Positions 24,785 to 61,642 of a DNA stretch of 64,000 nt are shown one piece after another; positions within the stretch are counted from its first letter, which is position 1, and each line of letters starts with the position of its first letter. The position numbers and the translations under genes were made by a program. The DNA lies in contig NC_069123.1 in assembly GCF_026914265.1 (NCBI RefSeq), forward strand, positions 48,244,949 to 48,308,948, in the 5' to 3' direction. Under the pieces are notes generated by a model. The model made no database searches. It saw nothing but the letters and a program-made list of their open reading frames with translations, and was not told where the DNA came from. The stretch comes from Mya arenaria. Taxonomy: Eukaryota > Mollusca > Bivalvia > Myida > Myidae.

Positions 24785-27016
24785 TTAAAGCAATGACAGT
24801 TCTAGCAGGACAACATATGCAAGCAATTTAAGTGGTGGCAGTTCTAGCAGGACAACAGATGCAAGCAATTTAAGTGGTGGCAGCACTAGCAGGACAACAG
24901 ATGCAAGCAATTTAAGTGGTGACAGTTCAAGCAGGACAACAGATGCAAGCAATTGAAGTGGTGACAGCACTAGCAGGACAACAGATGAAAGCAATTTAGG
25001 TGGTGACAATTCTAGCAGAACAACATATGAAAGCAATTTAAGTGGTGACAGTTCAAACAGGACAACAGATGAAAGCAATTTAAGTGGTGACAGTTCAAGC
25101 AGGACAACATATACAAGCAATTTAAGTGGTGACATTTCTAGCAGGACAACATATGCAAGCAATTAAAGTGGTGACAGCACTAGCAGGACAACAGATGCAA
25201 GCAATTTTGGTGGTGACAATTCTAGCAAGACAACATATGAAAGCAATTTAAGTGGTGACAGTTCAAGCAGGACAACATATGGAAGCAATTTACATGGTGA
25301 CAGTTCTAGCAGGACAACATATGCAAGCAATTTAGGTGATAACAATTCTAGCAGGACAACATATGCAAGCAATTTAAGTGGTGACAGTTCAAGCAGGACA
25401 ACATATGCAAGCAATATAAGTGGTGACAGTTCAAGCAGGACAACATATGCAAGCAATTTAAGTGGTGACATCACTTGAAGGTCAACATATGCAAGCAATT
25501 TAAGTGTCGACAGCGTTCTAGCAAGACAAGAGATGAAAGCGATTTAAGTGGTGATAGTTCAAGCAGGACAACATATGCAAGCAATTTAAGTGGCGACATC
25601 ACTTGCAGGACAACAGATGCAAGCAATTTAGGTGGTGACAGTTCAATCAGAACTACATATGCAAGCAATTTAAGTGGTGACAGCACTAGCAGGACAACAT
25701 ATGCAAGCAATTAATTAAAGTGGTGACAGTTCAAGCAGGACAACATATGAGAGCAATTTAAGTGGTGACAGCACTAGCAGGACAACATATGCAATCAATT
25801 TAAGTGGTGACATTTCAAGGAGGACAACAGATGCAAGCAATTAAAGTGGTGACAGTTCTAGCAGCACTAGCAGGACAACATATGCAAGCAATTTAAGTGG
25901 TGACAGTTCTAGCAGCACTAGCAGGACAACATATGCAAGCAATTTAAGTGGTGCCAGTTCTAGCAGCACTAGCAGGACAACATATGCAAGCAATTTAAGT
26001 GGTGACAGTTCTAGCAGCACTAGCAGGACAACATATGCAAGCAATTTAAGAGTTGACAGCACTAGCAGGACAACATATGCAAGCAATTTAAGTGGTGACA
26101 GCACTAACAGGACAACATATGCAAGCAATTTAAGTGGTGGCAGTTCTAGCAGGACAACAGATGCAAGCAATTTAAGTGGTGACAGCACTAGCAGGACAAC
26201 AGATGCAAGCAATTTAAGTGGTGACAGTTCAAGCAGGACAACAGATGCAAGCAATTGAAGTGGTGACAGCACTAGCAGGACAACAGATGCAAGCAATTTA
26301 GGTGGTGACAATTCTAGCAGAACAACATATGAAAGCAATTTAAGTGGTGACAGTTCAAACAGGACAACAGATGAAAGCAATTTAAGTGGTGACAGTTCAA
26401 GCAGGACAACATATACAAGCAATTTAAGTGGTGACATTTCTAGCAGGACAACATATGCAAGCAATTAAAGTGGTGACAGCACTAGCAGGACAACAGATGC
26501 AAGCAATTTTGGTGGTGACAATTCTAGCAAGACAACATATGAAAGCAATTTAAGTGGTGACAGTTCAAGCAGGACAACATATGGAAGCAATTTACATGGT
26601 GACAGTTCTAGCAGGACAACATATGCAAGCAATTTAGGTGATAACAATTCTAGCAGGACAACATATGCAAGCAATTTAAGTGGTGACAGTTCAAGCAGGA
26701 CAACATATGCAAGCAATATAAGTGGTGACAGTTCAAGCAGGACAACATATGCAAGCAATTTAAGTGGTGACATCACTTGCAGGTCAACATATGCAAGCAA
26801 TTTAAGTGTCGACAGCGTTCTAGCAAGACAAGAGATGAAAGCGATTTAAGTGGTGATAGTTCAAGCAGGACAACATATGCAAGCATTTTAAGTGGCGACA
26901 TCACTTGCAGGACAACAGATGCAAGCAATTTAGGTGGTGACAGTTCAATCAGAACTACATATGCAAGCAATTTAAGTGGTGACAGCACTAGCAGGACAAC
27001 ATATGCAAGCAATTAA
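24785..27016 (+). repeat. ~1.3-kb direct duplication inside the 42-bp satellite
   Basis: The order of variant units at about 25111-25714 recurs at about 26413-27016 with an offset of 1302 bases and only a few substitutions. The left part (from 24785) recurs from about 26130 with extra units inserted before it. The offset equals 31 units of 42 bp, consistent with unequal exchange. Confidence 0.75.
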
Positions 27017-28750
27017 TTTAAGTGGTGACAGTTCAAGCAGGACAACATATGAGAGCAATTTAAGTGGTGACAGCACTAGCAGGACAACATATGCAATCAA
27101 TTAAAGTGGTGACATTTCAAGGAGGACAACAGATGCAAGCAATTAAAGTGGTGACAGTTCTAGCAGCACTAGCAGGACAACATATGCAAGCAATTTAAGT
27201 GGTGACAGTTCTAGCAGCACTAGCAGGACAACATATGCAAGCAATTTAAGTGGTGACAGCACTAGCAGTACAACATATGCAAGCAATTAATTTAAGTGGT
27301 GACAATTCTAGCAGGACAACATATGAGAGCAATTTAAGTGGTGACAGCACTAGCAGGACAACATATGCAAGCAATTTAAGTGGTGACAGTTCTAGCAGCA
27401 CTAGCAGGACAACATGTGCAAGCAATTTAAGTGGTGCCAGTTCTAGCAGCACTAGCAGGACAACATATGCAAGCAATTTAAGTGGTGACAGTTCTAGCAG
27501 CACTAGCAGGACAACATATGCAAGCAATTTAAGTGGTGCCAGTTCTAGCAGCACTAGCAGGACAACATATGCAAGCAATTTAAGTGGTGACAGTTCTAGC
27601 AGCACTAGCAGGACAACATATGCAAGCAATTTAAGTGGTGACAGCACTAGCAGGACAACATATGCAAGCAATTTAAGTGGTGACAGCACTAGCAGGACAA
27701 CATATGAAAGCAATTTAAGTGGCGACAGTTCTAGCAGCACAACAGATGCAAGCAATTTAAGTGGTGACAGCACTAGCAGGACAACAGATGCAAGCAATTT
27801 AAGTGGTGACAGCACTAGCAGGAAAACATATGCAAGCAATTCAAGTGGTGACAGTTCTAGCAGCACTAGCAAGACAACATATGCAAGCAATTTAAGTGGT
27901 GACAATTCTAGCAGGACAACATATGCAAGCAATTTAAGTGGTGATAGTTCAAGCAGGACAACATATGCAAGCAATTTCAGTGGTGACAGTTCTAGCAGGA
28001 CAACATATGAAAGCAATTTAAGTGGTGACAGCACTAGCAGGACAACAGATGGAAGCAATGTAAGTGCTGACAGTTCTAGCAGCACTAGCAGGACAACAGA
28101 TCAAAGCAATTTAAGTGGTGACAGTTCAACCTGGACAACAGATGCAAACAATTTAAGATGTGACAGCTCAAGCAGGGCAACATATGAAAGCAATTTAAGT
28201 GGTGACAGTTCTAGCAGGACAACATATGCAAGCAATTTAAGTGGTGACAGCACTAGCAGGACAACAGATGGAAGCAATGTAAGTGCTGACAGTTCTAGCA
28301 GCACTAGCAGGACAACAGATCAAAGCAATTTAAGTGGTGACAGTTCAACCTGGACAACAGATGCAAGCAATTTAAGATGTGACAGCTTAAGCAGGACAAC
28401 ATATGAAAGCAATTTTAGTGGTGACAGTTCTAGCAGTACAACATATGCAAGCAATTTAAGATGTGACAGTTCAAGCAGGACAACATATGCAAGCAAGTTA
28501 AGTGGTGACAGTTCAAGCAGGACAACAGATGCAAGCAATTTAAGTGGTGACAGTTCAAGCAGGACAACATATGCAAGCAATTTAAGTGGTGACAGCACTA
28601 GCAGGACAACAGATCAAAGCAATTTAAGTGGTGACAGTTCAAGCAGGACAACATATGAAAGCAATTTAAGTGGTTACATCACTAGCAGGACAACATATGC
28701 AAGCAATTTAAGTGGTGACATTTCAAGGAGGACAACAGATGCAAGCAATT

Positions 28751-29190
28751 AAAGCGGTGACAGTTGTAGCAGGACAACATAGCATGCGCGGCAAGCAATT
28801 TAAGTGGTGACAGCACTAGCAGGACAAAAGATGCAAGCAATTTAAGTGGTGACAGCACTAGCAGGACAACATATGCAAGCAATTAAAGCGGTGACAGTTG
28901 TAGCAGGACAACATAGCATGCGCGGCAAGCAATTTAAGTGGTGACAGCACTAGCAGGACAACAGATGCAAGCAATTTAAGTGGTGACAGCACTAGCAGGA
29001 CAACATATGCAAGCAATTAAAGCGGTGACAGTTGTAGCAGGACAACATAGCATGCGCGGCAAGCAATTTAAGTGGTGACAGCACTAGCAGGACAACAGAT
29101 GCAAGCAATTTAAGTGGTGACAGCACTAGCAGGACAACAGATGCAAGCAATTAAAGCGGTGACAGTTGTAGCAGGACAACATAGCATGCG
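28751..29190 (+). repeat. 134-bp higher-order repeat, four copies
   Basis: A compound unit carrying 'aaagcggtgacagttgtagc' and the unique word 'catagcatgcgcggcaagc' starts at about 28751, 28885, 29019 and 29153, exactly 134 bases apart. It is the youngest-looking expansion in the satellite. Confidence 0.85.
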
Positions 29191-29339
29191 CGGCAAGCAA
29201 TTTAAGTGGTGACAGTTCTAGCAGGACAGCATTTGCAAGCAATTTAGGTGGTGACAGTTCTAGCAGGATAATGGATGCAAGCAATTTAAGTGGTGACCAT
29301 TCTATTGGTTACAGTTCTTGCAGGACAACCAACGTATAG

Positions 29340-42300: not shown

Positions 42301-45300
42301 TGGGTCAGGATATGTCAACCCTAACTTAAGTTATTCAGTTTCAACCATATTTCTATTTTTAGTAACAGTGACCTTGACCTTGAACCTAGGGACCCCAAAC
42401 GCAATCCCATGAAAGGTATCCATAAACGCTTCCTTTATATCTGGTTTAGTCAAGATATGTAGACCCTGTCTAAAATTATTCAGTTTCGACTGTTTTTCTA
42501 TTTTTAGTAACAGTGACCTTGACCTTGAATCTAGCGACCCCAAAACGCAATCCCATGAAAGTATCCATAAACTCATACTATAGACCAAGTTTGGTGAAGA
42601 TATGTCAACCCTAACTAAAGATATTCAGTTTGAACCATTTTTCTATTTTTAGTAATAATGACCTTGACCCTAGGGACCCCAAATGCATTCCCATGAAAGG
42701 TATCCATAAACTCTTCCTACAGACCAAGTTTGGTCAAGATATGTCAAAACTAACTAAAATTATTCAGTTTCAACTGTTTTTCAATTTTTAGTAACAGTGA
42801 CCTTGACCTTGACCCTAGGGACCCCAAACCCAATCCCATGAAATGTTTCTATAAACTCTTCTTGTACACCAGGTTTAGTCAAGATATGTCAAAATAAATA
42901 AAGTTATTTAGTTTCAACCATTTTTCTATTTTAAGTAACAGTGACCTTGACCTTGAACCTAGGGACCCCCATCGCAATCCCATGAAAGGTATCCATAAAC
43001 TCTTTCTATAGACCAAGTTTGGTGAAGATATGTCAACCCTTACTAAAGTTATTCAGTTTCAACTGTTTTTCTATTTTTAGTAACAGTCACCATGACCTTG
43101 AACCTAGGGACCCCAAACAAAATCCCATGAAAGGTCTCCATAAACTCTTCCTATAGACCAAGTTTAGTCAAGATCTGTCATTCCTAACTGAAGTTATTCA
43201 GTTTCAACCGTTTTTCCATTTTTAGTAACAGTAACCTTGACCTTGACCCTAGGGACCTCAAACACAATCCCATGAAAGGTATCTATAAACTCTTCCTGTT
43301 GACTAAGTTTGGTCAAGATATGTCAACCCTTACTAAAGTTATTCAGTTTCAACTGTTTTTCTATTTTAAGTAACAGTGACCTTGACCTTGACCCTAGGGA
43401 CCCCAAACGCAATCCCATGAAAGGTCTCTATACACTCTGCTTATAGACCAAATTTAGTCAAGATATGTCATCCCTAACTAAAGTTATTCAGTTTCAACCA
43501 TTTTCTATTTTTAGTTACAGTGACCTTGACCTTGACTCAAGGGACCCCAAACGCAATCCCATGAAAGGTCTCCATAAACTCTTTCTATAGACCAAGTTTA
43601 GTCAAGGTATGTCATCCCTAACTAAAGTAATTCAGTTTCAACCGTTTTTCTATTTTTAGTAACAGTGACCTTGACCTTGACCCTAGGGACCCCAAATGCA
43701 ATCCCATGAAAGGTACCAATAAACTCTTTCTATAGACCAAGTTTGGTCAAGATATGTCACCCCTTACTAAAGTTATTCAGTTTCATAGGTGAGTTTGACG
43801 CCGCCCGGCTGCCCGACTATGTGAAAACCTGGTTAATAAACAAAGGAGAGACACTTTTATGCAAGGTAAAACATTTCTGTATAAAGCCTACCCTTGATTT
43901 TCCTGATGGAGTCCTCTATGGAGTCGCCATATATGATGTCCTTCACATCAGCATTGTTAAGCTCTTTGATGATGGATTTCTGAGGAAGAAAGTGATTCAA
44001 AAAATTGCATTTTCATTCAAACACAAAAGTTTTACAGTTATCATATGAAATATGATATTTTCATATTCTTGACACTAATTTAAAAACATTCTATATAGTA
44101 CCTTCACTCCTGCCATTGAAAAGTGGACATCTTTTCTCTTGAAGTCTGCTATTATTTCTATAAGGCCCTGAAACATTAAAAAAGTATTTATATGTTATTT
44201 TAAGTAGTTTTTCCCTTAAATGTCTTCAAAGAACCAATAGAGCTGGAATACAGGAATTTGTCCAAGTATCCAAATAGCATCTATGAGTGATCCACACTAG
44301 GAGTATAAGGTAAATGGAACCATACTGAAAATCTATCCAGAAATAGAAACTTTCAGAGATGATTTAATTATGAAAATTGTCACATGATGTACTGATAGGT
44401 ATAAGCGCATGAAATAAGAGAATAACCGACCTGAGAATGTTCTGCAGCAAGTATAAGAAACAAAGCATAAATCACTGCTTCAACAATATTCTGACTTGAC
44501 CCGCAATGCTGTCATGGAAATATCATTTAAATGAATTTATAAAGCCCTTTTGACTGGTACAATAATTTAAACCAGAAGCTCAATATGACTTTTGTTAGCT
44601 GTACCATGATGGTTGTGTAGTCCAGACCGGACGTGAGATGTTGACAGTCAAGGATCACAGACAGTGGAACTCCCTCATCCTCATCTATAACAACAACAGA
44701 AATTCAACTCAACTAAAATATTCAAGTCAAAATCAGAATTTGTTACAGTTTATTTCGCACCTTATTTCTCATAGATATATGACAAACAAGAACCACAAGA
44801 AAGTACAACTTTTTACTCTTTTTTTTTCGTTATAAGATTAAACATAATTGGACCTACTTTTGTACATGTACTGTGTGACCTTGTTCTGTAGGTACTCAAC
44901 AGAAGGATAACGTATAGACTGGTTGAACGTGATTACCACATAGTCCAGGTACTGCACCTAAAACGAGAAACCATTCTGCATAAAAAATTATCCTGCAATT
45001 TAAATTCTAAATCATTAAATCAAATGATATCATACATGTTACTGTGTGCCTTCTAGATAAATTAAGTTTGAATCTTATCTTTTACATGGTTACAGATTAT
45101 TAATGTCAGACTGGATCTGGAGGATTCGTACCATAACATTGTATATAATGAATTACTTCACAAATATTTACACCTCAACTTCCATTCCTTAAATGAACGT
45201 CATTTCGGCAATTGCGTTCATCAATCGATGAACGCAACATCTTCGGATATGTTCGGATTGCAATTCATTGCATAACAATATACATGAAAAATATTTATCT

Positions 45301-48300
45301 TGTTATTGTTTGTATTGTGTCAGAAGGTCCCGTAAAATATAAATCAACATTTTAGAAAGTGTTAGTTTTTTTAAATTTTAAATGTGTAGTTGCCATAACT
45401 GTTTGAATTTTATGTTTAAAAGTGATTTCAAGTGGTTGATCTTTTCCCGCGATATTGTGACGTCATTTGAAAAAAATGCTTCCGGTTAGAGTCGGGTCGT
45501 TCTATTTACAGAATGGGTAGGAATGGGTTTACTGAAAAGTTTTTTTTAAATGAAATTAAGTTTTTTTAACAATTCTTGAATGAAATAATTAACTATTGGT
45601 GTAAATATAAGTAATGAATTGCGGGCTTGATGTCATTATCAGGGATATGAACGCAATTGGGCTGGTCAAAGTACTCGTGGAGTCCTTCAGACTCCACACA
45701 CTTAGACCAGCCCAATTGCGTTCATACCCCGACAATGACATCAAGCCCGCAATTCATTCCTTAAATAAGATAAACACATAAATTGAGCATCCTCATTCAA
45801 AATTTCATGGTAAGTGATTTAGTCATTAGGCCATGCATAACCTACAAAGAACCAACTTTGAAAGTGTTTGTTAGTGCCGAATCATACAATATACCTACCT
45901 AGAACACAAGGTACCACATGTATAAAATTAACACAGAGAACCACATGTATTAATTAAACACATAGAACCACACATGTATAAAATTAACACAGTATAGAAC
46001 TACATGTATAAAGTTAACACATTGTACTACATGTATAAAGAAAATCTCAATATAGTACCACATGTATAAAGCTATCAAATGTAATCATATTTAAAGCAAA
46101 CACAGGCTTTTAAGAAAAACGACCTTAACTTTTTTATTTCAACAGTACATTCATAGTTAGTCCTCTCAATAAAATCAGACATATTCACAGGCAGAAGTAA
46201 TTTTTAAGATTTATTATAATATGAAGCACCAGAACATGTTGACATTGTTATTGGAACATCCGTTGACACTTGAGTTTACAATCAGCATCAAATAGACCAA
46301 CATTCCAGGTTAGTAACAACAAGGCTGCAAGCACACTATACCACAATAAATGTGATATATTGGAAGGAAACATTAACAGAACAAAATAATGATAACAGCA
46401 GTGTTGTTAGTCAAATCAGACAAGAAAATGAATTCCAAAGCATTGACGTTAAGCCGCACCAGTATGTCACTTCTGGTTCATGTACATATGGGTTCTAATA
46501 GGTGATTATTGTCAATCCTGAAAATTAGCTAGGGGTCTTTTTTATGCCCAAAGTCTTGTTAGAGGACTAAGACCCCTTTTCAAGTTGTTTCCAAATTCAC
46601 TTATATTCATTTTTAAAAAAACTTCCTAATGTTTTTGGTACAAATGTCAGAGCAAAAAAACAAAAGCACAAATGTTTTAAGTTAAAGTCTTCAATGCTGA
46701 TTTCAGGATTAATGGTGAACCCCTATATACAACAGTACAATACCCGGTCAAAGCCTTGCACACGTCTTGCAAGTGCCGAAGAATTTACAGACACCATACT
46801 CAGTGGAAAACTTCTGTATGCTTTTGTAAACTGGATTTATAAACAACAGCATGTTACTTCAGTTCAGAGTGGCCGCAGTCAACAAATCAATCAAAACATC
46901 AATCATTTTCACTGCTGTTGATTCAACATCATCTCCATAAAACAATCAGGAAGTGCTAGTACAGGGAAATATCCTAGATGTATATTCAAGTCAACTTATG
47001 AACAAATATATAGATTAAATGTTCTTCTAATGAATAGTGAGAGCTCAAATATATTGACACATTGCAAAACCCCAACACTTACTTAGCCAGGAGGCCATTT
47101 TATCAAGAAACATGTTTCTTTCCCCAGAAAAATGCAGAAAATACATCATAGGAATGAAACCAATCCTAGGAATCTTGATTCTGGGATGATTGCTAACAAG
47201 ATATGTAACACATAGTATCACATGTATAAAGTGAACACATAGCACCACATGTATAAAGTTATCATAATAGTTACTCAGTGACTTAAGGTGATTCTGGGAT
47301 GATTGCTGACATTAAATGTAAGAAGTGCCTTACGATGATTCTGGAAAGGTTGCTGACATTTAATTTAAGGGCCTTACTGTATTCTGGGATTGCTGACATT
47401 AAATGTAAGCGCCTTACGGTGGTTCTGGAATGATTGCTAGCATGATATGTTACATTTAAATGACTTACGGTGATCCTTGGTCTAGCGACAGGGTACAGCA
47501 GAATAAGCAGATGGACTCCAATACCAATCAGAATTCCATACTGAAATAACACATCATCGCATATTCAAAACATATTCAATCATATAGACATTGTTGGTTA
47601 CAGTGCATTTTAAAAATATATAAAAGAATTTAAATACAATGAACAGAAACTCAAAATAAACTAATAGCTATATATTATAATACAATGCTTTATTCACTAC
47701 TACTAGCTGCCATGCTGATGATTGGTACATGATTACATTACCTCAATACCGAGGCCAAAGGAGGTCAGAAATGTCACTGCCCAGGGAATGAGAGCCAGTT
47801 CTAAAAAGATCAATGGATTATTATGGTCAGGTTTTGCAATTACTACGGTACATGTACTTTGTCATTACTTAAATTATAAAATATATCATTTTCATGTGTG
47901 TTATTTTGATATATTTACATTCCCCTAATCTTTTGTGTAGAAAACCTTGACCTTCATTTCTAAAGCCCATTAGGTTTGTGACCTTGTTTATTTCAATTTT
48001 GTGCTCGGACTGGATTAGTGTGATGTCATTTCGCCCAAACTGATAATCAATTCTTTTTTTAAAACGGCAATTGTTGATAACGTCACTTCAACAATAAATA
48101 CTCAGCCACAAAGATTTTATTGATTTTTAATGGTAATTAACAAATTGGAAAAGTAAGGACTGATCACATTTTTGCGCATAGTTGTAACTAGAAATGTGTC
48201 CATAGGACACGGATGCCCCCACTTCGGTTTTTTGTCACAGAAAATAAGCCATAATGATTTTTGAAGTATTTTTGGCAAAAAAGGGCCGTAACTCCTAAAT

Positions 48301-51300
48301 GACTAAAGCGATTTCCATGACTATCAAACTTGATCAAGATATTATGGTCACAAACATGTGTTTAAAGTTTGGTGAGGATTGGACAAACAGTTTTCAAGAA
48401 TTAGATCGGAAACAATCTTCGGGACGTATTTTTCAAGTCTTTTTTTGCAAATAAAGGGCCGTAACTCCTAAATGACAAAAGCGATTTCCATGGCTATCGA
48501 ACTTGATCAAGATATTATGGTCACAATCATGTATGTAAAGTTTGGTGAGGATTGGACACATACTTTTCAAGAATTAGATTGGAAACATATATTTTTGAAG
48601 TATTTTTGGCAAAAAAGGGCCGTAACTCCTAAATGACTTAAGCGATTTCCATGACTATCGAACTTGATCAAGATATTATGGTCACAAACATGTGTTTAAA
48701 GTTTGGTGAGGATTGGACAAACGGTTTTCAAGAATTAGATCGGAAACAATCTTCGGGACGTACGTACGTACGTACGTACGGACAAGGGCAACCCTATATG
48801 CCGCCACTTTGTGGGGGCATAAAAACGCAGGAGGGCACATTTTCCAAGAAGTGCTAGCATGCTTCATGCAATGTCCTTGAGTGCCCTTCAGCCATCATAC
48901 AGCATGAACGCATGAAAAAATGGCATCAATCTTTGAAGCTCATTTTTAACCAAAAGAAAATGATTGAAAATAAAAACTTATTTATCACTTATGTAAGTCA
49001 CATATAATTACAACTTTTGAACTTTGGAAGGGAAGCTTACTTTCTATTTTCCAGAATTTCATGACAATCTCATAATCGACCATCTGTATGACTGCAGAAA
49101 TGATAACAGCTGAGAGGGCGGACTTTGGGACATATTCAAACAGGGGAGTTAAAAAGGCCAGTGCCAGGATAATTATGCCCCCTGTCCACACTCCTGCCAT
49201 TGGTGTTCGCACTCCGCTCTGGGAATTAACTGCAGTCCTGTAAAATATCCAGTATGATTTTAGCAAACTAAAATTAACACTAAATTGTTGGAATGACTGG
49301 TTCTAAACTCGCACAATGGACCGAATGAAAATAGTAAGACTGTTCGTCCGAGATAAAAACCCATGTGGCATAATATTTCAAAGAAATGCACCAAATATTG
49401 TATGTAATTGTAAACGGTTGTATGGTTAGTGATTCTTAAGTGAATATCCTAACAAAAAACACACACATTTTTTTATATTCAAAAGAAGTGAGCATTAAAT
49501 ATATATACAAAAGAAGTTATCGTTATATGTTATTTCCCGCAAGCTGACCTGGAGAAGCTGCCGGTGACAGGATATGCAGACACAAATGAGCTCATGATGT
49601 TGGCAGCACCTGGATAGAGACAATATATATATATATTTACTGATTGTTTCTTTATACGTCATTTTTATCTTACCGAAGCCAACTTCTTTAATCAATTTCA
49701 CTTTGAACTATACTTGAATAGGAGTTCATGGCTGAATATACAAATAATCAGAGAACAAAATGTACACTGTGTTTCCTAATCCACTGGACCCAATTATTGT
49801 ACAATGTTGTAAGTCCCTAACAACATGATAGAGCAAGACCACTTTTTTGTTTTGATTTAAATCCTGAAAAGAGTTTTGAGATGTTTAAAGAATATTATTT
49901 TATATATAATCAAGATAATCGATGTCTTGCTTAAAAAAATCTAATTTAAGCAAGTCATATCGCTAAATAAATATCGTACAGTAACAACACCTGTAGTGCT
50001 ATTTCGAGAAAGTAGGACCATGCAATTTAAAATTTGTTAAAATTTGTACATGTGATTTTATTGTTAACATATCTGCCCTGTACAATTATATTTACCAACA
50101 GCAAGGAGTCCCTGTACTGTAGTATTATTTGACAATAACAAGGAGTGCCTGTACTGTAGTTATATTAACCAATAGCAAGAAGTCCCTGTACTGTAGTTAT
50201 ATTTACCAATAGCAAGGAGTTCCTGTACAGAAATTAAACTAACCAATAGCAAGAAGTCCCTGTACTGTAGTTATATTAACCAATAGCAAGAAGTCCTTGT
50301 ACTGTAGTTATATTAACCAATAGCAAGAAGTCCTTGTACTGTAGTTATATTTACCAATAGCAAGAAGTCCCTGTACTGTAGTTATATTTACCAATAGCAA
50401 GGAGTCCCTGTACTGTAGTTACATTAACCAATAGCAAGGTGTCCCTGTACTGTAGTTATATTTACCAATAGCAAGGAGTGCCTGTACTGTAGTTACATTT
50501 ACCAATAGCAAGGTGTCCCTGTACTGTAGTTATATTAACCAATAGCAAGAAGTCCCTGTACTGTAGTTATATTAACCAATAGCAAGAAGTCCCTGTACTG
50601 TAGTTATATTTACCAATAGCAAGAAGTCCCTGTACTGTAGTTATATTACCCAATAGCAAGGTGTCCCTGTACTGTAGTTATATTAACCAATAGCAAGAAG
50701 TCCCTGTACTGTAGTTATATTAACCAATAGCAAGAAGTCCCTGTACTGTAGTTATATTTACCAATAGCAAGAAGTCCCTGTACTGTAGTTATATTAACCA
50801 ATAGCAAGGTGTCCCTGTACTGTAGTTATATTAACCAATAGCAAGGTGTCCCTGTACTGTAGTTATATTAACCAATAGCAAGAAGTCCCTGTACTGTAGT
50901 TATATTAACCAATAGCAAGAAGTCCTTGTACTGTAGTTATATTAACCAATAGCAAGGTGTCCCTGTACTGTAGTTATATTAACCAATAGCAAGAAGTCCT
51001 TGTACTGTAGTTATATTTACCAATAGCAAGGAGTCCCTGTACTGTAGTTATATTTACCAATAGCAAGGAGTCCCTGTACTGTAGTTACATTAACCAATAG
51101 CAAGGAGTGCCTGTACTGTAGTTATATTAACCAATAGCAAGAAGTCCCTGTACTGTAGTTACATTTACCAATAGCAAGGAGTTCCTGTACAGAAATTAAA
51201 CTAACCAATAGCAAGGAGTCCTTGTACTGTAGTTATATTACCCAATAGCAAGGAGTTCCTGTACTGTAGTTATATTTACCAATAGCAAGGAGTTCCTGTA

Positions 51301-54300
51301 CAGAAATTAAACTAACCAATAGCAAGAAGTCCCTGTACTGTAGTTATATTTACCAATAGCAAGAAGTCCCTGTACTGTAGTTATATTTACCAATAGCAAG
51401 GAGTTCCTGTACAGAAATTAAACTAACCAATAGCAAGAAGTCCCTGTACTGTAGTTATATTTACCAATAGCAAGGAGTTCCTGTACAGAAATTAAACTAA
51501 CCAATAGCAAGGAGTCCCTGTACTGTAGTTACATTAACCAATAGCAAGAAGTCCTTGTACTGTAGTTATATTTACCAATAGCAAGAAGTCCCTGTACTGT
51601 AGTTATATTTACCAATAGCAAGGAGTTCCTGTACAGAAATTAAACTAACCAATAGCAAGGAGTCCCTGTACTGTAGTTATATTAACCAATAGCAAGAAGT
51701 CCCTGTACTGTAGTTATATTTACCAATAGCAAGGAGTTCCTGTACAGAAATTAAACTAACCAATAGCAAGAAGTCCTTGTACTGTAGTTATATTTACCAA
51801 TAGCAAGAAGTCCCTGTACTGTAGTTATATTAACCAATAGCAAGAAATCCCTGTACTGTAGTTATATTAACCAATAGCAAGAAGTCCCTGTACTGTAGTT
51901 ATATTAACCAATAGCAAGGAGTGCCTGTACTGTAGTTATATTACCCAATAGCAAGGAGTGCCTGTACTGTAGTTATATTAACCAATAGCAAGGAGTGCCT
52001 GTACTGTAGTTATATTTACCAATAGCAAGAAGTCCCTGTACTGTAGTTATATTACCCAATAGCAAGGAGTGCCTGTACTGTAGTTATATTACCCAATAGC
52101 AAGGAGTGCCTGTACTGTAGTTATATTAACCAATAGCAAGAAGTCCCTGTACTGTAGTTATATTACCCAATAGCAAGGAGTGCCTGTACTGTAGTTATAT
52201 TACCCAATAGCAAGGAGTGCCTGTACTGTAGTTATATTAACCAATAGCAAGGAGTGCCTGTACTGTAGATATATTTACCAATAGCAAGGAGTTCCTGTAC
52301 TGTAGTTACATTTACCAATAGCAAGGAGTGCCTGTACTGTAGTTATATTACCCAATAGCAAGAAGTCCCTGTACTGTAGTTATATTACCCAATAGCAAGG
52401 AGTGCCTGTACTGTAGTTATATTAACCAATAGCAAGGAGTGCCTGTACTGTAGATATATTTACCAATAGCAAGAAGTCCTTGTACTGTAGTTATATTAAC
52501 CAATAGCAAGGAGTGCCTGTACTGTAGATATATTTACCAATAGCAAGGAGTGCCTGTACTGTAGTTACATTTACCAATAGCAAGGAGTGCCTGTACTGTA
52601 GTTATATTACCCAATAGCAAGAAGTCCCTGTACTGTAGTTATATTTACCAATAGCAAGGAGTGCCTGTACTGTAGTTATATTTACCAATAGCAAGGAGTG
52701 CCTGTACTGTAGTTATATTTACCAATAGCAAGGAGTGCCTGTACTGTAGTTATATTAACCAATAGCAAGAAGTCCCTGTACTGTAGTTATATTTACCAAT
52801 AGCAAGGAGTGCCTGTACTGTAGTTACATTTACCAATAGCAAGGTGTCCCTGTACTGTAGTTACATTTACCAATAGCAAGGAATTTCTGTACAGAAATTG
52901 AACTAACCAATAGCAAGAAGTCCATGTACTGTAGTTATATTTACCAATAGCAGGAAGTCCCTGTACTGTAGTTATATTTACCAATAGCAAGGAGTGCCTG
53001 TACTGTAGTTACATTTACCAATAGCAAGGAATTTCTGTACAGAAATTGAACTAACCAATAGCAAGAAGTCCAGGTACTGTAGTTATTTCTACCAATAGCT
53101 AGGAGTTCCTGTACAGAAGTTTAATTAACCAATAGCAAGAAGTCCCAGTATTGTAGTTATATTAACCAATAGCAAGAAGTCCCTGTACTGTAGTTATATT
53201 TACCAATAGCAAGGAGTGCCTGTACTGTAGTTATATTAACCAATAGCAAGAAGTCCCTGTACTGTAGTTACATTTACCAATAGCAAGGAGTGCCTGTACT
53301 GTAGTTATATTAACCAATAGCAAGAAGTCCCTGTACTGTAGTTATATTAACCAATAGCAAGAAGTCCCTGTACTGTAGTTATATTAACCAATAGCAAGAA
53401 GTCCCTGTACTGTAGTTATATTAACCAATAGCAAGGAGTCCCTGTACTGTAGTTACATTTACCAATAGCAAGGAGTGCCTGTACTGTAGTTATATTAACC
53501 AATAGCAAGGTGTCCCTGTACTGTAGTTATATTAACCAATAGCAAGAAGTCCCTGTACTGTAGTTACATTTACCAATAGCAAGAAGTCCCTGTACTGTAG
53601 TTATATTAACCAATAGCAAGAAGTCCCTGTACTGTAGTTATATTAACCAATAGCAAGAAGTCCTTGTACTGTAGTTATATTAACCAATAGCAAGGAGTCC
53701 CTGTACTGTAGTTACATTTACCAATAGCAAGAAGTCCCTGTACTGTAGTTATATTAACCAATAGCAAGGTGTCCCTGTACTGTAGTTATATTAACCAATA
53801 GCAAGAAGTCCCTGTACTGTAGTTATATTACCCAATAGCAAGAAGTCCCTGTACTGTAGTTACATTAACCAATAGCAAGGAGTGCCTGTACTGTAGTTAT
53901 ATTAACCAATAGCAAGAAGTCCCTGTACTGTAGTTACATTTACCAATAACAAGGAGTGCCTGTACTGTAGTTATATTAACCAATAGCAAGAAGTCCCTGT
54001 ACTGTAGTTATATTTACCAATAGCAAGGAGTGCCTGTACTGTAGTTATATTTACCAATAGCAAGGAGTGCCTGTACTGTAGTTATATTAACCAATAGCAA
54101 GGTGTCCCTGTACTGTAGTTATATTAACCAATAGCAAGAAGTCCCTGTACTGTAGTTATATTAACCAATAGCAAGAAGTGCCTGTACTGTAGTTATATTA
54201 ACCAATAGCAAGAAGTCCCTGTACTGTAGTTATATTAACCAATAGCAAGGTGTCCCTGTACTGTAGTTATATTAACCAATAGCAAGAAGTCCCTGTACTG

Positions 54301-57300
54301 TAGTTATATTAACCAATAGCAAGAAGTCCCTGTACTGTAGTTATATTAACCAATAGCAGGAAGTCCCTGTACTGTAGTTATATTTACCAATAGCAAGGAG
54401 TTCCTGTACTGTAGTTACATTTACCAATAGCAAGAAGTCCCTGTACTGTAGTTATATTTACCAATAGCAAGAAGTGCCTGTACTGTAGTTATATTAACCA
54501 ATAGCAAGGTGTCCCTGTACTGTAGTTATATTACCCAATAGCAAGAAGTCCCTGTACTGTAGTTATATTAACCAATAGCAAGAAGTCCCAGTACTGTAGT
54601 TATATTTACCAATAGCAAGAAGTCCCTGTACTGTAGTTATATTTACCAATAGCAAGGAGTGCCTGTACTGTAGTTATATTACCCAATAGCAAGAAGTCCC
54701 TGTACTGTAGTTATATTTACCAATAGCAAGAAATCCCTGTACTGTAGTTATATTACCCAATAGCAAGAAGTCCCTGTACTGTAGTTATATTAACCAATAG
54801 CAAGGAGTCCCTGTACTGTAGTTATATTTACCAATAGCAAGAAGTCCCTGTACTGTAGTTATATTTACCAATAGCAAGGTGTCCCTGTACTGTAGTTATA
54901 TTAACCAATAGCAAGAAGTGCCTGTACTGTAGTTATATTAACCAATAGCAAGAAGTCCCTGTACTGTAGTTATATTAACCAATAGCAAGGTGTCCCTGTA
55001 CTGTAGTTATATTAACCAATAGCAAGAAGTCCCTGTACTGTAGTTATATTAACCAATAGCAAGAAGTCCCTGTACTGTAGTTATATTAACCAATAGCAAG
55101 AAGTCCCTGTACTGTAGTTATATTAACCAATAGCAAGAAGTCCCAGTACTGTAGTTATATTAACCAATAGCAAGGTGTCCCTGTACTGTAGTTATATTAA
55201 CCAATAGCAAGAAGTCCCAGTACTGTAGTTATATTACCCAATAGCAGGAAGTCCCTGTACTGTAGTTATATTAACCAATAGCAGGAAGTCCCTGTACTGT
55301 AGTTATATTTACCAATAGCAAGAAGTCCCTGTACTGTAGTTATATTACCCAATAGCAAGAAGTCCCTGTACTGTAGTTATATTTACCAATAGCAAGAAGT
55401 GCCTGTACTGTAGTTATATTAACCAATAGCAAGGTGTCCCTGTACTGTAGTTATATTACCCAATAGCAAGGTGTCCCTGTACTGTAGTTATATTAACCAA
55501 TAGCAAGAAGTCCCTGTACTGTAGTTATATTTACCAATAGCAAGGAGTGCCTGTACTGTAGTTACATTTACCAATAGCAAGGAGTGCCTGTACTGTAGTT
55601 ACATTTACCAATAGCAAGGAGTGCCTGTACTGTAGTTACATTTACCAATAGCAAGGAGTGCCTGTACTGTAGTTACATTTACCAATAGCAAGGAGTGCCT
55701 GTACTGTAGTTATATTAACCAATAGCAAGAAGTCCCTGTACTGTAGTTATATTTACCAATAGCAAGGAGTGCCTGTACTGTAGTTATATTTACCAATAGC
55801 AAGGAGTTCCTGTACTGTAGTTACATTTACCAATAGCAAGGAGTGCCTGTACTGTAGTTATATTAACCAATAGCAAGAAGTCCCTGTACTGTAGTTATAT
55901 TTACCCAATAGCAAGAAGTCCCTGTACTGTAGTTATATTAACCAATAGCAAGAAGTCCCTGTACTGTAGTTATATTTACCCAATAGCAAGAAGTGCCTGT
56001 ACTGTAGTTATATCAACCAATAGCAAGAAGTCCCTGTACTGTAGTTACATTTACCAATAGCAAGAAGTCCCTGTACTGTAGTTACATTTACCAATAGCAA
56101 GAAGTCCCTGTACTGTAGTTATATTTACCAATAGCAAGAAGTCCCTGTACTGTAGTTATATCAACCAATAGCAAGGAGTGCCTGTACTGTAGTTATATTA
56201 CCCAATAGCAAGGAGTGCCTGTACTGTAGTTATATTAACCAATAGCAAGAAGTCCCTGTACTGTAGTTACATTTACCAATAGCAAGGAATTTCTGTACAG
56301 AAATTGAACTAACCAATAGCAAGAAGTCCAGGTACTGTAGTTATTTCTACCAATAGCTAGGAGTTCCTGTACAGAAGTTTAATTAACCAATAGCAAGAAG
56401 TCCCAGTATTGTAGTTATATTAACCAATAGCAAGAAGTCCCTGTACTGTAGTTATATTTACCAATAGCAAGAAGTCCCTGTACTGTAGTTATATTACCCA
56501 ATAGCAAGGAGTGCCTGTACTGTAGTTATATTACCCAATAGCAAGGAGTGCCTGTACTGTAGTTATATTACCCAATAGCAAGGAGTCCCTGTACTGTAGT
56601 TATATTAACCAATAGCAAGAAGTCCCTGTACTGTAGTTATATTAACCAATAGCAAGAAGTCCCTGTACTGTAGTTATATTACCCAATAGCAAGAAGTCCC
56701 TGTACTGTAGTTACATTTACCAATAGCAAGGAGTGCCTGTACTGTAGTTACATTTACCAATAGCAAGAAGTCCCTGTACTGTAGTTACATTTACCAATAG
56801 CAAGAAGTCCCTGTACTGTAGTTACATTTACCAATAGCAAGAAGTCCCTGTACTGTAGTTATATTACCCAATAGCAAGAAGTCCCTGTACTGTAGTTACA
56901 TTTACCAATAGCAAGGAGTGCCTGTACTGTAGTTACATTTACCAATAGCAAGAAGTCCCTGTACTGTAGTTACATTTACCAATAGCAAGAAGTCCCTGTA
57001 CTGTAGTTATATTTACCCAATAGCAAGGAGTGCCTGTACTGTAGTTATATTTACCCAATAGCAAGAAGTCCCTGTACTGTAGTTACATTTACCCAATAGC
57101 AAGAAGTCCCTGTACTGTAGTTATATTTACCCAATAGCAAGGAGTGCCTGTACTGTAGTTACATTTACCAATAGCAAGAAGTCCCTGTACTGTAGTTACA
57201 TTTACCAATAGCAAGAAGTCCCTGTACTGTAGTTATATTACCCAATAGCAAGGAGTGCCTGTACTGTAGTTATATTTACCCAATAGCAAGAAGTGCCTGT

Positions 57301-60300
57301 ACTGTAGTTATATTTACCCAATAGCAAGAAGTCCTTGTACTGTAGTTATATTTACCCAATAGCAAGGAGTGCCTGTACTGTAGTTATATTTACCCAATAG
57401 CAAGAAGTCCCTGTACTGTAGTTATATTTACCCAATAGCAAGAAGTCCCTGTACTGTAGTTACATTTACCAATAGCAAGGAGTGCCTGTACTGTAGTTAC
57501 ATTTACCAATAGCAAGAAGTCCCTGTACTGTAGTTACATTTACCAATAGCAAGAAGTCCCTGTACTGTAGTTATATTTACCCAATAGCAAGAAGTCCCTG
57601 TACTGTAGTTATATTTACCAATAGCAAGAAGTCCCTGTACTGTAGTTACATTTACCAATAGCAAGAAGTCCCTGTACTGTAGTTACATTTACCAATAGCA
57701 AGAAGTCCCTGTACTGTAGTTATATTACCCAATAGCAAGGAGTCCCTGTACTGTAGTTATATTTACCAATAGCAAGGAGTTCCTGGTTTGGCAGAATTTT
57801 GTAGTTATTCTGACGGGCTGAAAAACACATGCATATTTAACATGTTTATACTGGATATTGCAGTATATATATATATGCATTTGTATCCTTTATTGATATA
57901 GCTTTAATTTTCAATTTAAAACTACAAAAATTGCATTTTAGAACACTGTCTTTGGATGCTTGATTGATTTTGAAAATCAACAACATACATGAAGGTCAGC
58001 GATAAAGAATGAAATAAGGTAAATTTATTAAATTTGAATTAAAACTTCTGAGATTAAACAAGTTTGCTTGCATGATTGTGTGAAAATTTGATCCCATACC
58101 AAAAGCCTTGCCGATAGCGATGGATTCCACTAGTCCAAGAATAGGCACCACAATGAGGCCAGCTCCGATGTCCTGAAAGCATTTACAGATATAGGATTTG
58201 GTCATTTCGATTAATGTAGTAGTGATATAGTAGTGGATGATTAATTATAACCTAGTGATAAGTCAGGGGATGATTTCCTCAACAATCCTGAAAATGGTTC
58301 AATACCTAGAAGAGATTTTTAGCAATAATGTACCTTTGTTAAAATCTACAAAACCACTTCTGGGATGTTTATTCTCTGGATCGCAAAAGAAGCGGGACCA
58401 CCAAAGCAATGAAAATATTAATGATGTATTTAGTTTTTAACTTTTTACCTTTATGCCTAAAGAAAATTATTAGGGTCAGCAAGGAAAAAATAGGGTTGGT
58501 CGGGTTACTGGAAACCAGTTGGGTTTTTTTTGGGGGGGAGGGGGGGACCTTAATTTTGGAGGTTGGATAGTTGGGAGCACATGCCTAAAGTTTCAATGCA
58601 ATACATGATGTATCTGCTTTGAAATTAAATGTGGTAAAATTAAAATCCTTACCCAGAATATCTAAGTTGAATAATAAAGGCCCATAATTTGCATTTTAAG
58701 CAAAGGAAAGTTATCTTACTTGGTTATTTAAGACGGTTGGATGGTTGAGTACCGTTGTTTCAAGCCTCAATGTAATACATCAAGTAGTTGCTGAGATATA
58801 TACCTATGTGTGCTTACATGCAAAAGCTTAACCAAATTTCTAAATTGAATAATAAAGGTCCATACTTTGCATTATATTCAAAATGGTGTTATCTATAATC
58901 ATAAATTAAGTCGGTTGGATCGTTGGGAACAAATATCTTAAGTTTCAATGCAATAAGTAATGTTTTTGCTGAGATAATGACTTAAAGGTGCTTACATTAA
59001 AAACCTTAACCAAGGTATGATGCTGTCGCCGACGCTAGGGTGAATAGTATAGCTCTCCTTATTCTTTGAATAGTTGAGCTAAAAATGAAGAAAGGTTATT
59101 TAGAAACTATAACAAAACTTGAAGAGGCTTAATGCTGTCTGCTTACACCAAAGATTTGTCCAGTTGTGATGGTTGTGTTGCCATTTTGGAGACTAAAATT
59201 TGGAGGCTTAAAGGGAGGTAATCCAGCCTTCACATGGCCGGTGACGGACAGGGCGTCTCCATGACCATATTTCTCCAATATTGCAGCAATACCACTGCAC
59301 GTTATCACAATTATTGCATTGGCGGCTGAAAAACATAATAATATTATAAATATTATCACTAAACTTATATTTTATATCTATTTACAGCTTATTTTCTAAC
59401 ATAACAATGAGTTAAGTGCATAGTTAAAGATACAACTTTTACTTTAAAAATTAAAATTTGTACTAATAAATAACTCACCTATACTAGAAAGCCAAATGAA
59501 CTTGCGGAAGACTAAAACAATCATTGGAATTCGTTCATTTGGTCCTGGCTGGCGCCATTTTATCTTACGGAGTTGCTGTAATCATAAAGAATCTAATCTT
59601 TCATTTAATATAATTATTTTGCTTTGAAGAATATGCTTCAATAAATTTATGATATCATGGAAGTATAAAATGTTATATTATGCGACAGTGTATTAAAATG
59701 TTATAATATGCTACAAAAATTAAATCTGTTATAACTTCTTTAAATACAGCTTAGCAATTAAATTTTAACATTTAAGAATAGCATGCATTTATAAGAAATC
59801 AATGATTGTTTGTTGTAATATGTAATACAAGGCGAATGTTGTAATGTGACACTGATGGTTGCCATGTCAACCCACCTTCATAAGCAGCAGTACAACAATG
59901 GCAGACAATCCCATCGTCAGGTCCCAGACCCTGGTAATAGAACAGTCAATATAAATCCCATCAACACATGCCTTTCAACATGATCAGCAACAACACTTTA
60001 CAGATCTATTATGGATACCACTGTTACACATTTTTTACACATTTTTTGCAACCCATTATTCAATGGTGATGTCATTTAATTCTAGGAAAGCTTATTGAAA
60101 TTTTCAAATGATTCAGTGTCATACATATTCAGCTCAAGAAACTTTGGTGACATTTGATCTCACCTGGTTTCGGGAATTTTCTTGCAGGTCTCATATACCA
60201 TGTGAAGGAACTCGCGCGGAATGTCATGGAGACCCAGAATGCCTTTTACCTGACCAAAGGCAATTGTGATGGCTGCCGCTGAGGTAAAGGCGTTGATAAC

Positions 60301-61642
60301 CGGATACGATATGAAGTTCACCATAATTCCTGTGAAAAATACTCATCTTTATTGATAATCTAATTTCATTTTTTGTACTAAAAGCTTCCTACTAATAAAA
60401 CTACTACGCTGTATAGATTTGCCCACTACAAAACATACTCCGTTAAAGCACATTACATGACATCATACAACAAATAAGACCATCTCCATTCTTCAACTAG
60501 ACAATGTGGCATTAATTTGACTAATCTTTTTCAAGATATTGAAGCACATTTACCTAAATGTAGTACACCCATTAAAAATTGCACGACCCCACAAACAAGT
60601 GTGAGTATGAGAGCGTATGTTGGGTCGTTAGGTATCGGGGAGGAGGCAAAGGCAGCAGTCATTAGGGACATGATCGCCGTAGGACCCAGCGTGATGTCCT
60701 TCGATGTACCCAGGAGTGTGTACACAAAACATCCCATGAATGCCGAGTACAGACCATACTGAAATATATAATTGTTAATATAACATAACATAACATAACA
60801 TTCATTTATTCAGCATTCAACGTTTACATCATTCATAGCCAACATAAATTTTATACAACATTGTTGCATAAAAGCAAAGACATGGTCAATAAAGATATTT
60901 TGCATAATTACATTCACATAAGTTATATGTAATAATGACATGAAGTTATCACTATCTTGTTAGGTTAGTGATTGAAATTTAGATGCATAGTATAAAAATT
61001 TACTAAAATTACTTTCCTTAATTTTTACTAGAATCTGATGACATCATAGTTATAAACAGCAAAAATTAGGTTTAAGGTATTCCTCCTTAAATTATTATAA
61101 TTGGGACAAGCTAGAAGGAAATGATGTTCATACTGCAATAAGGACAAATTATATCTGTTCTGGGTATATTATGATGTCTTTCCGATTGAATCATTAAATC
61201 ATGATAGGATATAATTTTATGTATGCAGTGATTTTTTTTATAATGGCAATTTTAGGACTCATTTAACTGTGGTTTTAACTAAACTCTGTTATTAGTTTAA
61301 TATCAATTAACAAAATTCTGACTAAATCCTGTAAACTTTTACGACTAATCTATAAATAAGGATACCTCTGTCGACAATCATTGCAGGACTCAGACATTGT
61401 TTAAAGGCATTAGTGTATTGCACATCTATAATAGAAAACACAAGTGGATGTCCTCACTTGTGTTTCCATAGCAATTATGTATTGAGCACTAATACTGAAT
61501 TCTATTGTATTTGTGAGTCAATGTTTTTGTGTTACTGACTTGAGGAGGTAGGTTGGCAATGACAGCGTATGCAAGGCCCTGAGGTAACACGGTAAGCGCT
61601 ACGGTCAGTCCACTGATCAGGTCACACTGGAAATCCTGCAGG
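39372..61642 (-). CDS. SLC26A11: SLC26A11-type sodium-independent sulfate/anion transporter, 17 exons, N-terminus missing
   Basis: A multi-pass membrane anion transporter. Coding exons (minus, 5' to 3'): 61642-61540, 60758-60554, 60329-60165, 59930-59876, 59575-59479, 59325-59147, 58172-58100, 57817-57767, 49609-49549, 49237-49041, 47800-47742, 47540-47469, 44957-44858, 44684-44605, 44167-44102, 43979-43892, 39655-39372. They encode about 644 residues. Hallmarks in order: ISGLTVALTVLPQGLAYA, YGLYSAFMGCFVY with LGPTAIMSL (sulfate transporter signature region), FISYPVINAFTSAAA, GLVESIAIGKAF, QNNYKILPNQELLAIG, YPVTGSFSRTAVN, VPKSALSAVIISAV, then a STAS domain over exons 13-16 with VILDCQHLTSGLDYTT. 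The match is closest to human SLC26A11 as I recall it. The last exon is a Ser/Glu-rich tail. Exon 3 ends one base out of frame with exon 4. The extreme N-terminal exon is not recognised. Confidence 0.93.
40940..41760 (-). mobile_element. second MITE composite (hairpin plus TIR element) in the last SLC26A11 intron
   Basis: A reverse-orientation relative of 19741-20345. The inverted termini are around 41322 ('tttttctcccaatcag') and 41738-41752 ('ctgaggtgggagaaa'). The hairpin lies at 41186-41312 and there is another partial internal copy at about 40940-41160. Internal words such as 'cacaagacaaggctt' and 'ggaggtaattac' are shared. It has no coding capacity. Confidence 0.65.
42180..43785 (+). repeat. 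~145-bp tandem repeat, about 11 copies, bivalve-type
   Basis: The unit contains 'gtaacagtgaccttgacc', 'agggaccccaaa', 'cccatgaaaggtatccata' and 'agttattcagtttcaa'. Units start near 42227, 42371, 42517 and so on, with 80-90% mutual similarity by eye. It lies in the last intron of SLC26A11 and stops about 100 bases from exon 16. The word 'accttgacctt' is common in bivalve repeats (general knowledge). Confidence 0.9.
43789..43865 (+). other. exon-like, coding-looking segment on the plus strand, unknown origin
   Basis: A GC-rich 77-base stretch sits between an AG acceptor (TTTCATAG) and a GTAAAA donor. It is open on the plus strand and encodes EFDAARLPDYVKTWLI followed by NKGETLLCK. It lies within an intron of the minus-strand transporter, at the edge of the 145-bp array. 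Its composition and frame look like a real exon, but no partner exon was found and I do not recognise the family. It may be a captured exon or processed fragment. Confidence 0.3.
45190..45765. mobile_element. foldback element with ~55-bp near-perfect arms
   Basis: Left arm 45613-45667 ('aatgaattgcgggcttgatg' onward) and right arm 45705-45758 are inverted repeats with only about three mismatches. An inner 8-bp stem ('gtggagtc'/'gactccac') lies between them. The sequence near 45190 ('cattccttaaatgaacgtca') resembles the right flank, suggesting the element begins there. It is a non-autonomous foldback/MITE-like insertion in intron 12 of SLC26A11. Confidence 0.6.
45880..46080 (+). repeat. degenerate ~38-bp tandem repeat ('ccacatgtataaa')
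   Basis: Five or six copies of a phrase like 'tagaaccacatgtataaaat' plus 'taacaca'. A further two copies occur at 47205-47260 in the same intron, so the block has been duplicated or split. The stretch 46080-47200 shows no other feature. Confidence 0.6.
47283..47476 (-). repeat. tandem repeat derived from the exon 12-intron junction of SLC26A11
   Basis: On the minus strand exon 12 ends GGATCACC/GTAAGTCATT. The next 190 bases repeat this junction with a period of about 46 bases: AGAACCACC/GTAAGGCGCTT, AGAATACAGTAAGGCCCTT, AGAATCATC/GTAAGGCACTT and AGAATCACCTTAAGTCACT. The repeats are separated by a shared 'ATTTAATGTCAGCAATC' spacer. At least two downstream copies keep a good GTAAG donor. Confidence 0.8.
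48180..48830 (+). repeat. bivalve-type dispersed repeat with internal tandem units and an ACGT run
   Basis: It starts 'actagaaatgtgtccatag' and ends 'tttgtgggggcataaaa'. Inside are about three ~190-bp units with 'aaagggccgtaactcctaaa' and 'aacttgatcaagatattatg', then (ACGT)n at 48757-48779. It lies in an SLC26A11 intron. This element type is abundant in bivalves (general knowledge). Confidence 0.75.
50075..57787 (-). repeat. 7.7-kb tandem array of a 37-bp unit derived from SLC26A11 exon 8 and its donor
   Basis: About 208 copies of a 37-bp unit fill most of intron 8. Read in gene sense, a unit is CAGGGACTCCTTGCTATTG then GTTAATATAACTACAGTA. Exon 8 itself ends CAGGAACTCCTTGCTATTG/GTAAATATAACTACAG, so the unit is the exon's last 16 bases plus the start of the intron. 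The array abuts the exon directly. A variant unit carries TTTCTGTACAG/GAACTCCTTGCTATTG/GTTAGT, with credible acceptor and donor. A block at 53033-53165 recurs at 56291-56423, about 88 units away. The units are 36-38 bp and highly similar, suggesting ongoing homogenisation. Confidence 0.95.
57767..57817 (-). CDS. SLC26A11: SLC26A11 exon 8, source of the 37-bp array
   Basis: This 51-base exon encodes A-RQNNYKILPNQELLAI-G, matching the ASQNNYRIDANQELLAIG segment of the human protein as recalled. The acceptor is GTTTTTCAG and the donor GTAAAT. Phases fit exon 7 (58172-58100) and exon 9 (49609-49549). The word AATAACTACA inside the exon recurs in the intron as ATATAACTACAG. This microhomology could have seeded the first slippage duplication. 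Confidence 0.9.
58585..59050 (+). repeat. bivalve-type dispersed repeat
   Basis: Tandemly related phrases 'ttgaataataaaggcccata' and 'gtttcaatgcaata' end in 'gatgctgtcgccgacgctag' and 'atagctctccttatt'. This is the arrangement of a common bivalve repeat (general knowledge). It lies between exons 6 and 7 of SLC26A11. A G-rich run occurs just before it at about 58530-58548. Confidence 0.65.
60780..61160 (-). repeat. possible 3' end of a LINE or SINE with (TTATG)n tail
   Basis: On the minus strand the segment ends in 'TGAATAAATGAATG' followed by four TTATG units, like the simple-repeat tail of some non-LTR retrotransposons. No reverse-transcriptase words are recognised upstream, so the copy is short. 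It sits between exons 1 and 2 of the listed SLC26A11 exons. Confidence 0.3.

Follow-up and report, generated by a model that had tools for sequence, protein, structure and literature searches.

A Large 37-bp Tandem Array Copied from an Exon–Intron Boundary of an SLC26A11-Like Gene in Mya arenaria: Probably a Neutral Mirage Minisatellite

Introduction

In amphioxus, tandem repeats that cross exon–intron borders, termed mirages, have been described in Adh3, in the globin genes BflGb6 and BflGb9, and in the genes for troponin C and PGBD5, and according to published accounts they leave splicing intact (PMC3087553, PMC3902484). Here, we describe an array built in the same way in the bivalve Mya arenaria. 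The array lies in a 64,000-nucleotide stretch of DNA, hereafter the window (assembly GCF_026914265.1, contig NC_069123.1, positions 48,244,949 to 48,308,948), the minus strand of which carries an SLC26A11-like gene. One intron of this gene is occupied almost throughout by about 208 copies of a 37-bp unit that joins the end of the preceding exon, exon F, to the beginning of the intron, donor splice site included. The array had been singled out in a first-pass annotation made from the letters of the sequence. We consider it very probable that it is an exceptionally large neutral mirage minisatellite, which arose through a short duplication linked to CAGG words, expanded locally, and is tolerated via splicing at the exon-proximal donor. 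The features discussed are collected in Table 1.

Table 1. Positions of the array, its source exon, and related features in the window
Feature	Position	Strand	Description	Basis
37-bp array	50086..57785	minus	208 units	TRF, segmentation, and pattern count
Exon F	57767..57817	minus	Source exon, 51 nt; phase 1/phase 1; donor TTG/GTAAAT	Splice-consistent; SulP/SLC26 homology
Host intron	49610..57766	minus	~8.15 kb; array fills all but ~0.5 kb	Exon coordinates and array extent
Exon E	58100..58172	minus	Upstream exon, DIGAGLIVVPILGLVESIAIGKAF	
Exon G	49549..49609	minus	Downstream exon, GAANIMSSFVSAYPVTGSFS	
SLC26A11-like gene as modelled	43892..61642	minus	13 candidate exons	AG and GT borders
Exon J	47469..47540	minus	72 nt; codes ...LLYPVARPRIT; donor ACC/GTAAGT	Sequence and splice model
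Probable second, smaller mirage	47277..47438	minus	47-bp unit, 3.7 copies	TRF

Structure, Source, and Confinement of the Array

Tandem Repeats Finder (TRF), run on the window, reports 207.8 copies of the 37-bp unit with 91% matches. If the unit within the exon is counted, the array, cut outward from the exon, resolves into 208 units, with lengths of 37 bp (195 units), 38 bp (12 units), and 35 bp (one unit), in keeping with the roughly 200 copies given by the first-pass annotation. The unit consists of the final 19 nt of exon F (CAGGAACTCCTTGCTATTG) and the first 18 nt of its intron, and it therefore crosses the exon–intron boundary, with the donor within. The annotation had correctly let the array begin inside the exon, and its division of the unit into 16 exon and about 20 intron nt comes close to the measured 19 and 18. 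The authentic boundary is retained at the edge of the array, which extends downstream of the exon F donor. Among the 208 units there are 53 distinct sequences; units of 37 bp differ by 8.8% on average, and eight units (nine with the exon itself) match the exon copy exactly over 37 nt.

The segment at the exon end found its match in the intron at 32 of 32 positions, compared with a maximum of 23 across 30 resampled introns. Furthermore, a unit pattern of 32 bases, with up to three mismatches allowed, matched 179 times in the window and not once in 100 shuffles. Thus, a chance match is excluded. Across the 1.216-Gb genome a complete count of the same pattern also gave 179 matches; because the two counts are equal, all of the matches lie in this window, which rules out a satellite that spread from elsewhere and one that is dispersed or borne by a transposon. 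Occurrence at many unrelated loci, which the annotation had named as the finding that would speak against its own proposal, was therefore not what the count returned. A DNA search gave 32 places, all of them in the array, but such a search skips common words and is not relied on here.

On the minus strand, exon F with its flanks reads TTTTTCAG/CCCGTCAG...CAGGAACTCCTTGCTATTG/GTAAATATAACTACAG, where slashes mark exon borders. Both splice sites are standard, the borders being TTTTTCAG/CCCGTC...GCTATTG/GTAAAT. The translation of the exon, ARQNNYKILPNQELLAIG, is in phase with the neighboring exons; with its split codons, the coding sequence is written (A)RQNNYKILPNQELLAI(G). Exons D2 to J, 8 of the 13 candidates in the gene model, are open in one frame throughout, the join of exon C to exon D2 is out of frame, with an unplaced exon probably lying between the two, and exons L and M were positioned by visual inspection. 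The stretch from exon E to exon H matches Pfam PF00916 (E 6.3e-42). Among proteins of solved structure, 9iar (“Sodium-independent sulfate anion transporter”) is its best match (E 7.9e-44); we take this protein to be SLC26A11, in agreement with the gene name given by the annotation. The end of exon F codes for NQELLAIG, which is identical in 9iar and corresponds to NQELIAIG in 9nf7 and NSELFGLG in 7lhv. Because this motif is conserved in solved relatives, exon F is old coding sequence from which the array was derived. The unit moreover agrees with the exon end in both sequence and phase, and the origin from an exon end and its donor, as first proposed, is upheld.

Splice Signals Within the Array

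Scored with a crude matrix made from the other 12 donors of the gene, the real donor, TTG/GTAAAT, reaches 5.4. Its exact 9-mer, TTGGTAAAT, is found in 81 of the 208 units, the exon's own included—that is, in 80 extra copies—and 93 units score at least as high as the real donor with this matrix. The copied donor reads TTGGT or TTGGGT in 207 of the 208 units, so that the splice dinucleotide is kept nearly throughout. With 80 exact copies of the 9-mer, and GT in all units but one, the choice of donor cannot rest on local sequence alone. Most work on donor choice relies on a single engineered duplicate or a few of them; the array constitutes a natural experiment on how the splicing machinery chooses the correct site among near-identical copies.

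Read-through from exon F meets its first in-frame stop codon beginning 44 nt into the intron, and splicing from each of the first eight decoy donors likewise leads to a premature stop. The exon-proximal donor is therefore needed for the conserved frame, from which we infer that, if the protein is made, splicing takes this donor. With the boundary intact and the array lying to its intron side, the exon-proximal donor could still be joined to the next exon, and the array would be removed with the intron; it is most likely functionless, its silence being the reason why it is tolerated. When exon F and the first units were folded as RNA, the z value was −2.47, which is not interpreted, as repeats pair with each other.

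The wealth of donors could also be understood in functional terms: about 200 donor-like sites might bind the U1 small nuclear ribonucleoprotein, slow or regulate removal of the intron, and tune the dosage of the transporter, in the manner of the OGT decoy exons. The 81 units with the exact 9-mer and the 93 that equal or exceed the real donor fit such a role, as does the promotion of long-intron retention by decoy exons in human genes (PMC12017769). However, the best donor-like site is only ACAGTACAG in 72 of the 208 units (2.1, compared with 5.4 for the real donor), and acceptors are poor. Among the 189 of 208 units with listed scores, acceptor-like sites rated with a crude matrix of 13 sites score from −2.3 to −0.7 in 184 units and 3.4 in the other five. 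Of the 13 real acceptors, one scores −1.5 and the other 12 lie between 1.2 and 12.5, which leaves a slight overlap of the two ranges. In addition, boundary copies elsewhere in the genome are no commoner than duplications within introns (see below), and no selection is therefore visible. A functional decoy array is accordingly judged very unlikely.

Origin of the Array and Alternative Readings

The word CAGG stands at exon position −19 and at intron position +18, 37 bp apart. A short tandem duplication, probably between these two words, would have placed the exon end and the 5′ splice site into the intron, and duplication between short repeated words is the likely origin of the array. The distal end of the array also continues into TACAGGGCAG. 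Slippage between AATAACTACA and ATATAACTACAG, the words suggested by the first-pass annotation, has to be abandoned: these words align 48 bp apart and cannot yield a unit of 37 bp, whereas the spacing of the CAGG words fits. Growth to about 208 units would then have proceeded by slippage and unequal exchange, to which the diversity of the units points. The expansion that followed the origin was local. Identity between units is 0.19 at a lag of 88 units, compared with 0.07 at a lag of 89, a pattern that points to an old duplication of 3.26 kb within the array. No run of at least six identical units is common to two places in the array, however, and that duplication has therefore either been reshuffled since or was only partial. 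As to edge exclusion and concerted evolution, the two most distal units are degenerate, and divergence from the exon copy does not change systematically with position in the array.

Two further observations concern variant units. Those near 52885, 53030, and 56290 contain the 18-base palindrome AATTTCTGTACAGAAATT, and a block at 53030–53160 recurs near 56290–56420.

Three points weigh against a CAGG-linked, neutral origin. The CAGG junction is partly circular, in that the copy at +18 is the first repeat, and it is independent only at the distal end (...TACAGGGCAG). The 3.26-kb duplication, with the missing common runs, is not clean. Lastly, the near-invariant core of the donor can be read as constraint, which amplification from a few founders explains equally well.

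Long arrays are hard to assemble, and a single sequence of the locus is at hand, so that a real array might have been inflated in copy number or its units misassembled. Yet 53 distinct units without a common run of six or more speak against a copied block, and the array sits on a chromosome-sized sequence (C2, 71.6 Mb); an artefact of assembly appears highly improbable. Still less credible is a reservoir of micro-exons, in which units—typically an AG, 21 in-frame nt, and a donor—are sometimes spliced in as optional exons. Indeed, TACAGGGACTTCTTGCTATTG comprises 21 nt, keeps the phase, contains no stop, and would read VQGLLAI after exon F; on the other hand, its acceptor has hardly any pyrimidine tract and receives a low score in the majority of units, and insertion into the conserved core of the transporter would probably disrupt the protein. 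That a pre-existing satellite gave rise to the exon end and its donor can be practically dismissed, as nothing was found in its favor, the exon end codes for a conserved stretch, and the satellite was counted at no other locus. A neutral mirage thus remains the preferred reading.

A Second Candidate Array and Other Repeats of the Window

The 47-bp unit near exon J contains AGAATCACCGTAAGGCACTT, which resembles the end of exon J and its donor, AGGATCACC/GTAAGTCATTT, and GCTAG words lie 45 bp apart at this array. When the 26 boundaries of the gene were each compared with 300 resampled sequences, two stood out: the donor of exon F (score 80) and that of exon J (25). The exon J match was never equaled in 2000 shuffles of the unit; of 708 other segments of the window, one matches better. 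Two results count against a mirage at exon J, namely that its gapped score of 25 was reached by 4 of 1000 resampled sequences, with 26 boundaries tested, and that the ungapped test gave 21/32, inside the resampled maximum of 22. Overall, a second mirage in the same gene is probable, though not beyond doubt.

TRF arrays with periods of at least 10 cover 29% of the window, compared with 2.5% of the first 58 loci of the survey described below; the window is therefore repeat-rich. At 23821–29304, a 42-bp array of 126 copies has open frames on both strands, coding for up to 500 amino acids of Ser/Thr-rich repeats. These frames could be coding or could be due to chance, 42 being divisible by 3. A 33-bp array of 14 copies, open in several frames, lies at 4117–4582, and a 28-bp array of about 55 copies at 7077–8673.

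Copies of Exon Boundaries Elsewhere in the Genome

The survey covered 98 loci around Pfam matches (L009–L106): 58 with sulfate transporter or myosin domains and 40 with kinesin or ABC domains, the latter chosen by the analyst among 217 matches listed. The loci include four from the gene in the window (L019, L020, L033, and L035) and 10 full-domain matches in one open frame (L009–L018), the ends of which are probably not exon boundaries. They are also not all independent, comprising paralogous pairs and some overlapping stretches (e.g., L096/L098). A sequence segment was flagged when its score exceeded the highest of 40 resampled sequences by over 4 points. By this measure, 11 of 196 boundary windows were flagged (5 of 116 in the first 58 loci and 6 of 80 in the other 40), compared with 14 of 196 intron control windows (4 of 116 and 10 of 80)—a rough comparison, the controls being from the same loci and possibly falling in the same arrays. 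Because intron windows were flagged at least as often, boundary copying resembles local duplication of the ordinary sort, which does not spare exon edges, and special targeting of exon boundaries is unsupported.

A copy of an exon boundary in the adjacent intron was found at six of the 98 loci, each scoring above all of 1000 resampled sequences; donors are copied in L079 (kinesin) and L104 (ABC), and acceptors in L025, L094, L095, and L099. The other five flagged boundary windows (L041, L042, L061, L062, and L097) reflect repeats beside an acceptor that contain no exon sequence. The kinesin array has a 59-bp unit in 13.5 copies, read as the final 57 nt of the exon plus GT, and retains CAG/GTAAGA at 11 of 13 donor sites; its donor, GTAAGAG, may have been created by the repeat junction itself.

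Some particulars of these loci are as follows. The kinesin array lies at C9:23517453–23518223 (L079/L107/L108), with the exon end GKSYTMMGRSDEAQQGIIPQ/GTAAGAG. In the same kinesin region (L108, C9:23509316–23511182), another array with a 37-bp unit, of 48.9 copies, is unrelated in sequence by eye. At L104 (C15:34726449–34727998), the end of an ABC-transporter exon, FDTTPVGRIINRFSSDLDE/GTAAGT, is repeated downstream in a degenerate array with a unit of 87 bp (3.1 copies, 67% match). L094 (C4:26.13 Mb) and L095 (C4:0.197 Mb) are ABC paralogs, in both of which the upstream intron contains the acceptor and the start of the exon as a copy; because the copy is common to both, they are counted as one event, and the duplication either predates the split of the paralogs or was converted between them. 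L025 (C14:51.32 Mb) and L099 (C9:15.07 Mb) each have one extra acceptor with 14–18 nt of exon, located upstream of the authentic acceptor by 108 and 72 nt, respectively. Many gene matches on C1, C3, C4, C7, and C11 form near-identical pairs, some of them mirrored (C1:35.1/45.0 Mb and C7:46.7/60.8 Mb), and C11 carries a kinesin fragment some ten times; both observations may reflect segmental duplications of recent date or haplotypes that were retained.

Comparison with Known Systems

As a kind, the array is not as unusual as the first-pass annotation had held: the amphioxus mirages (PMC3087553, PMC3902484) and a human variable number of tandem repeats (VNTR) in CBS (PMC2630376) are built alike, so the kind is already known, and further exons of the same genome, probably including exon J, show it as well. 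No mirage in a mollusc turned up among the papers listed by a literature search confined to open-licence work, a result that argues only weakly for absence. New are the copy number, the genome, the probable second mirage in the same gene, and a hint of generality. Should the small survey be borne out, duplication of boundaries would be common in this genome, would extend mirages beyond amphioxus, and would inform models of intron growth and intron gain. Tentatively, and with slightly less than even confidence, we propose that exon boundaries are routinely copied into introns here and that mirages represent a general route of intron growth rather than a cephalochordate oddity, continually supplying near-perfect cryptic splice sites that the spliceosome would have to disregard solely by their position. 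The SLC26A11 array would then be an extreme and usable test case, as it contains 80 exact copies of a real donor and about 200 near ones.

The OGT decoy exons of detained introns are likewise rarely used, splice-site-like sequences within a long intron, but a decoy exon requires a recognized acceptor and donor (PMC12017769), whereas the array described here has donors and mostly weak acceptors. Tandem repeats of human segmental duplications, with units of ~30 bp, in some cases lie at exon–intron boundaries and can yield new introns; they average about 4 copies, and some alter the transcript (PMC2812944). Closer in structure is the human CBS 31-bp VNTR, c.1444_1467+7, which also combines an exon end with its donor (24 exon and 7 intron nt, from its name); it comprises 16–21 copies and is polymorphic in people, and its coding sequence and unit are unrelated to those of the array (PMC2630376, PMC1395315).

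The amphioxus mirages differ from the present array in unit length (10–72, 60, 108, and 150–160 bp, compared with 37 bp in 208 units and in another genome). Two haplotypes of BflGb6 carry 3 and 6 repeat units, whereas one sequence represents the locus here; both splicing and length variation have been examined in amphioxus. In amphioxus, moreover, either exon end can be involved (PMC3087553, PMC3902484). Overall, the array in M. arenaria resembles these mirages in that the authentic boundary is kept and many of the copies keep their splice signals.

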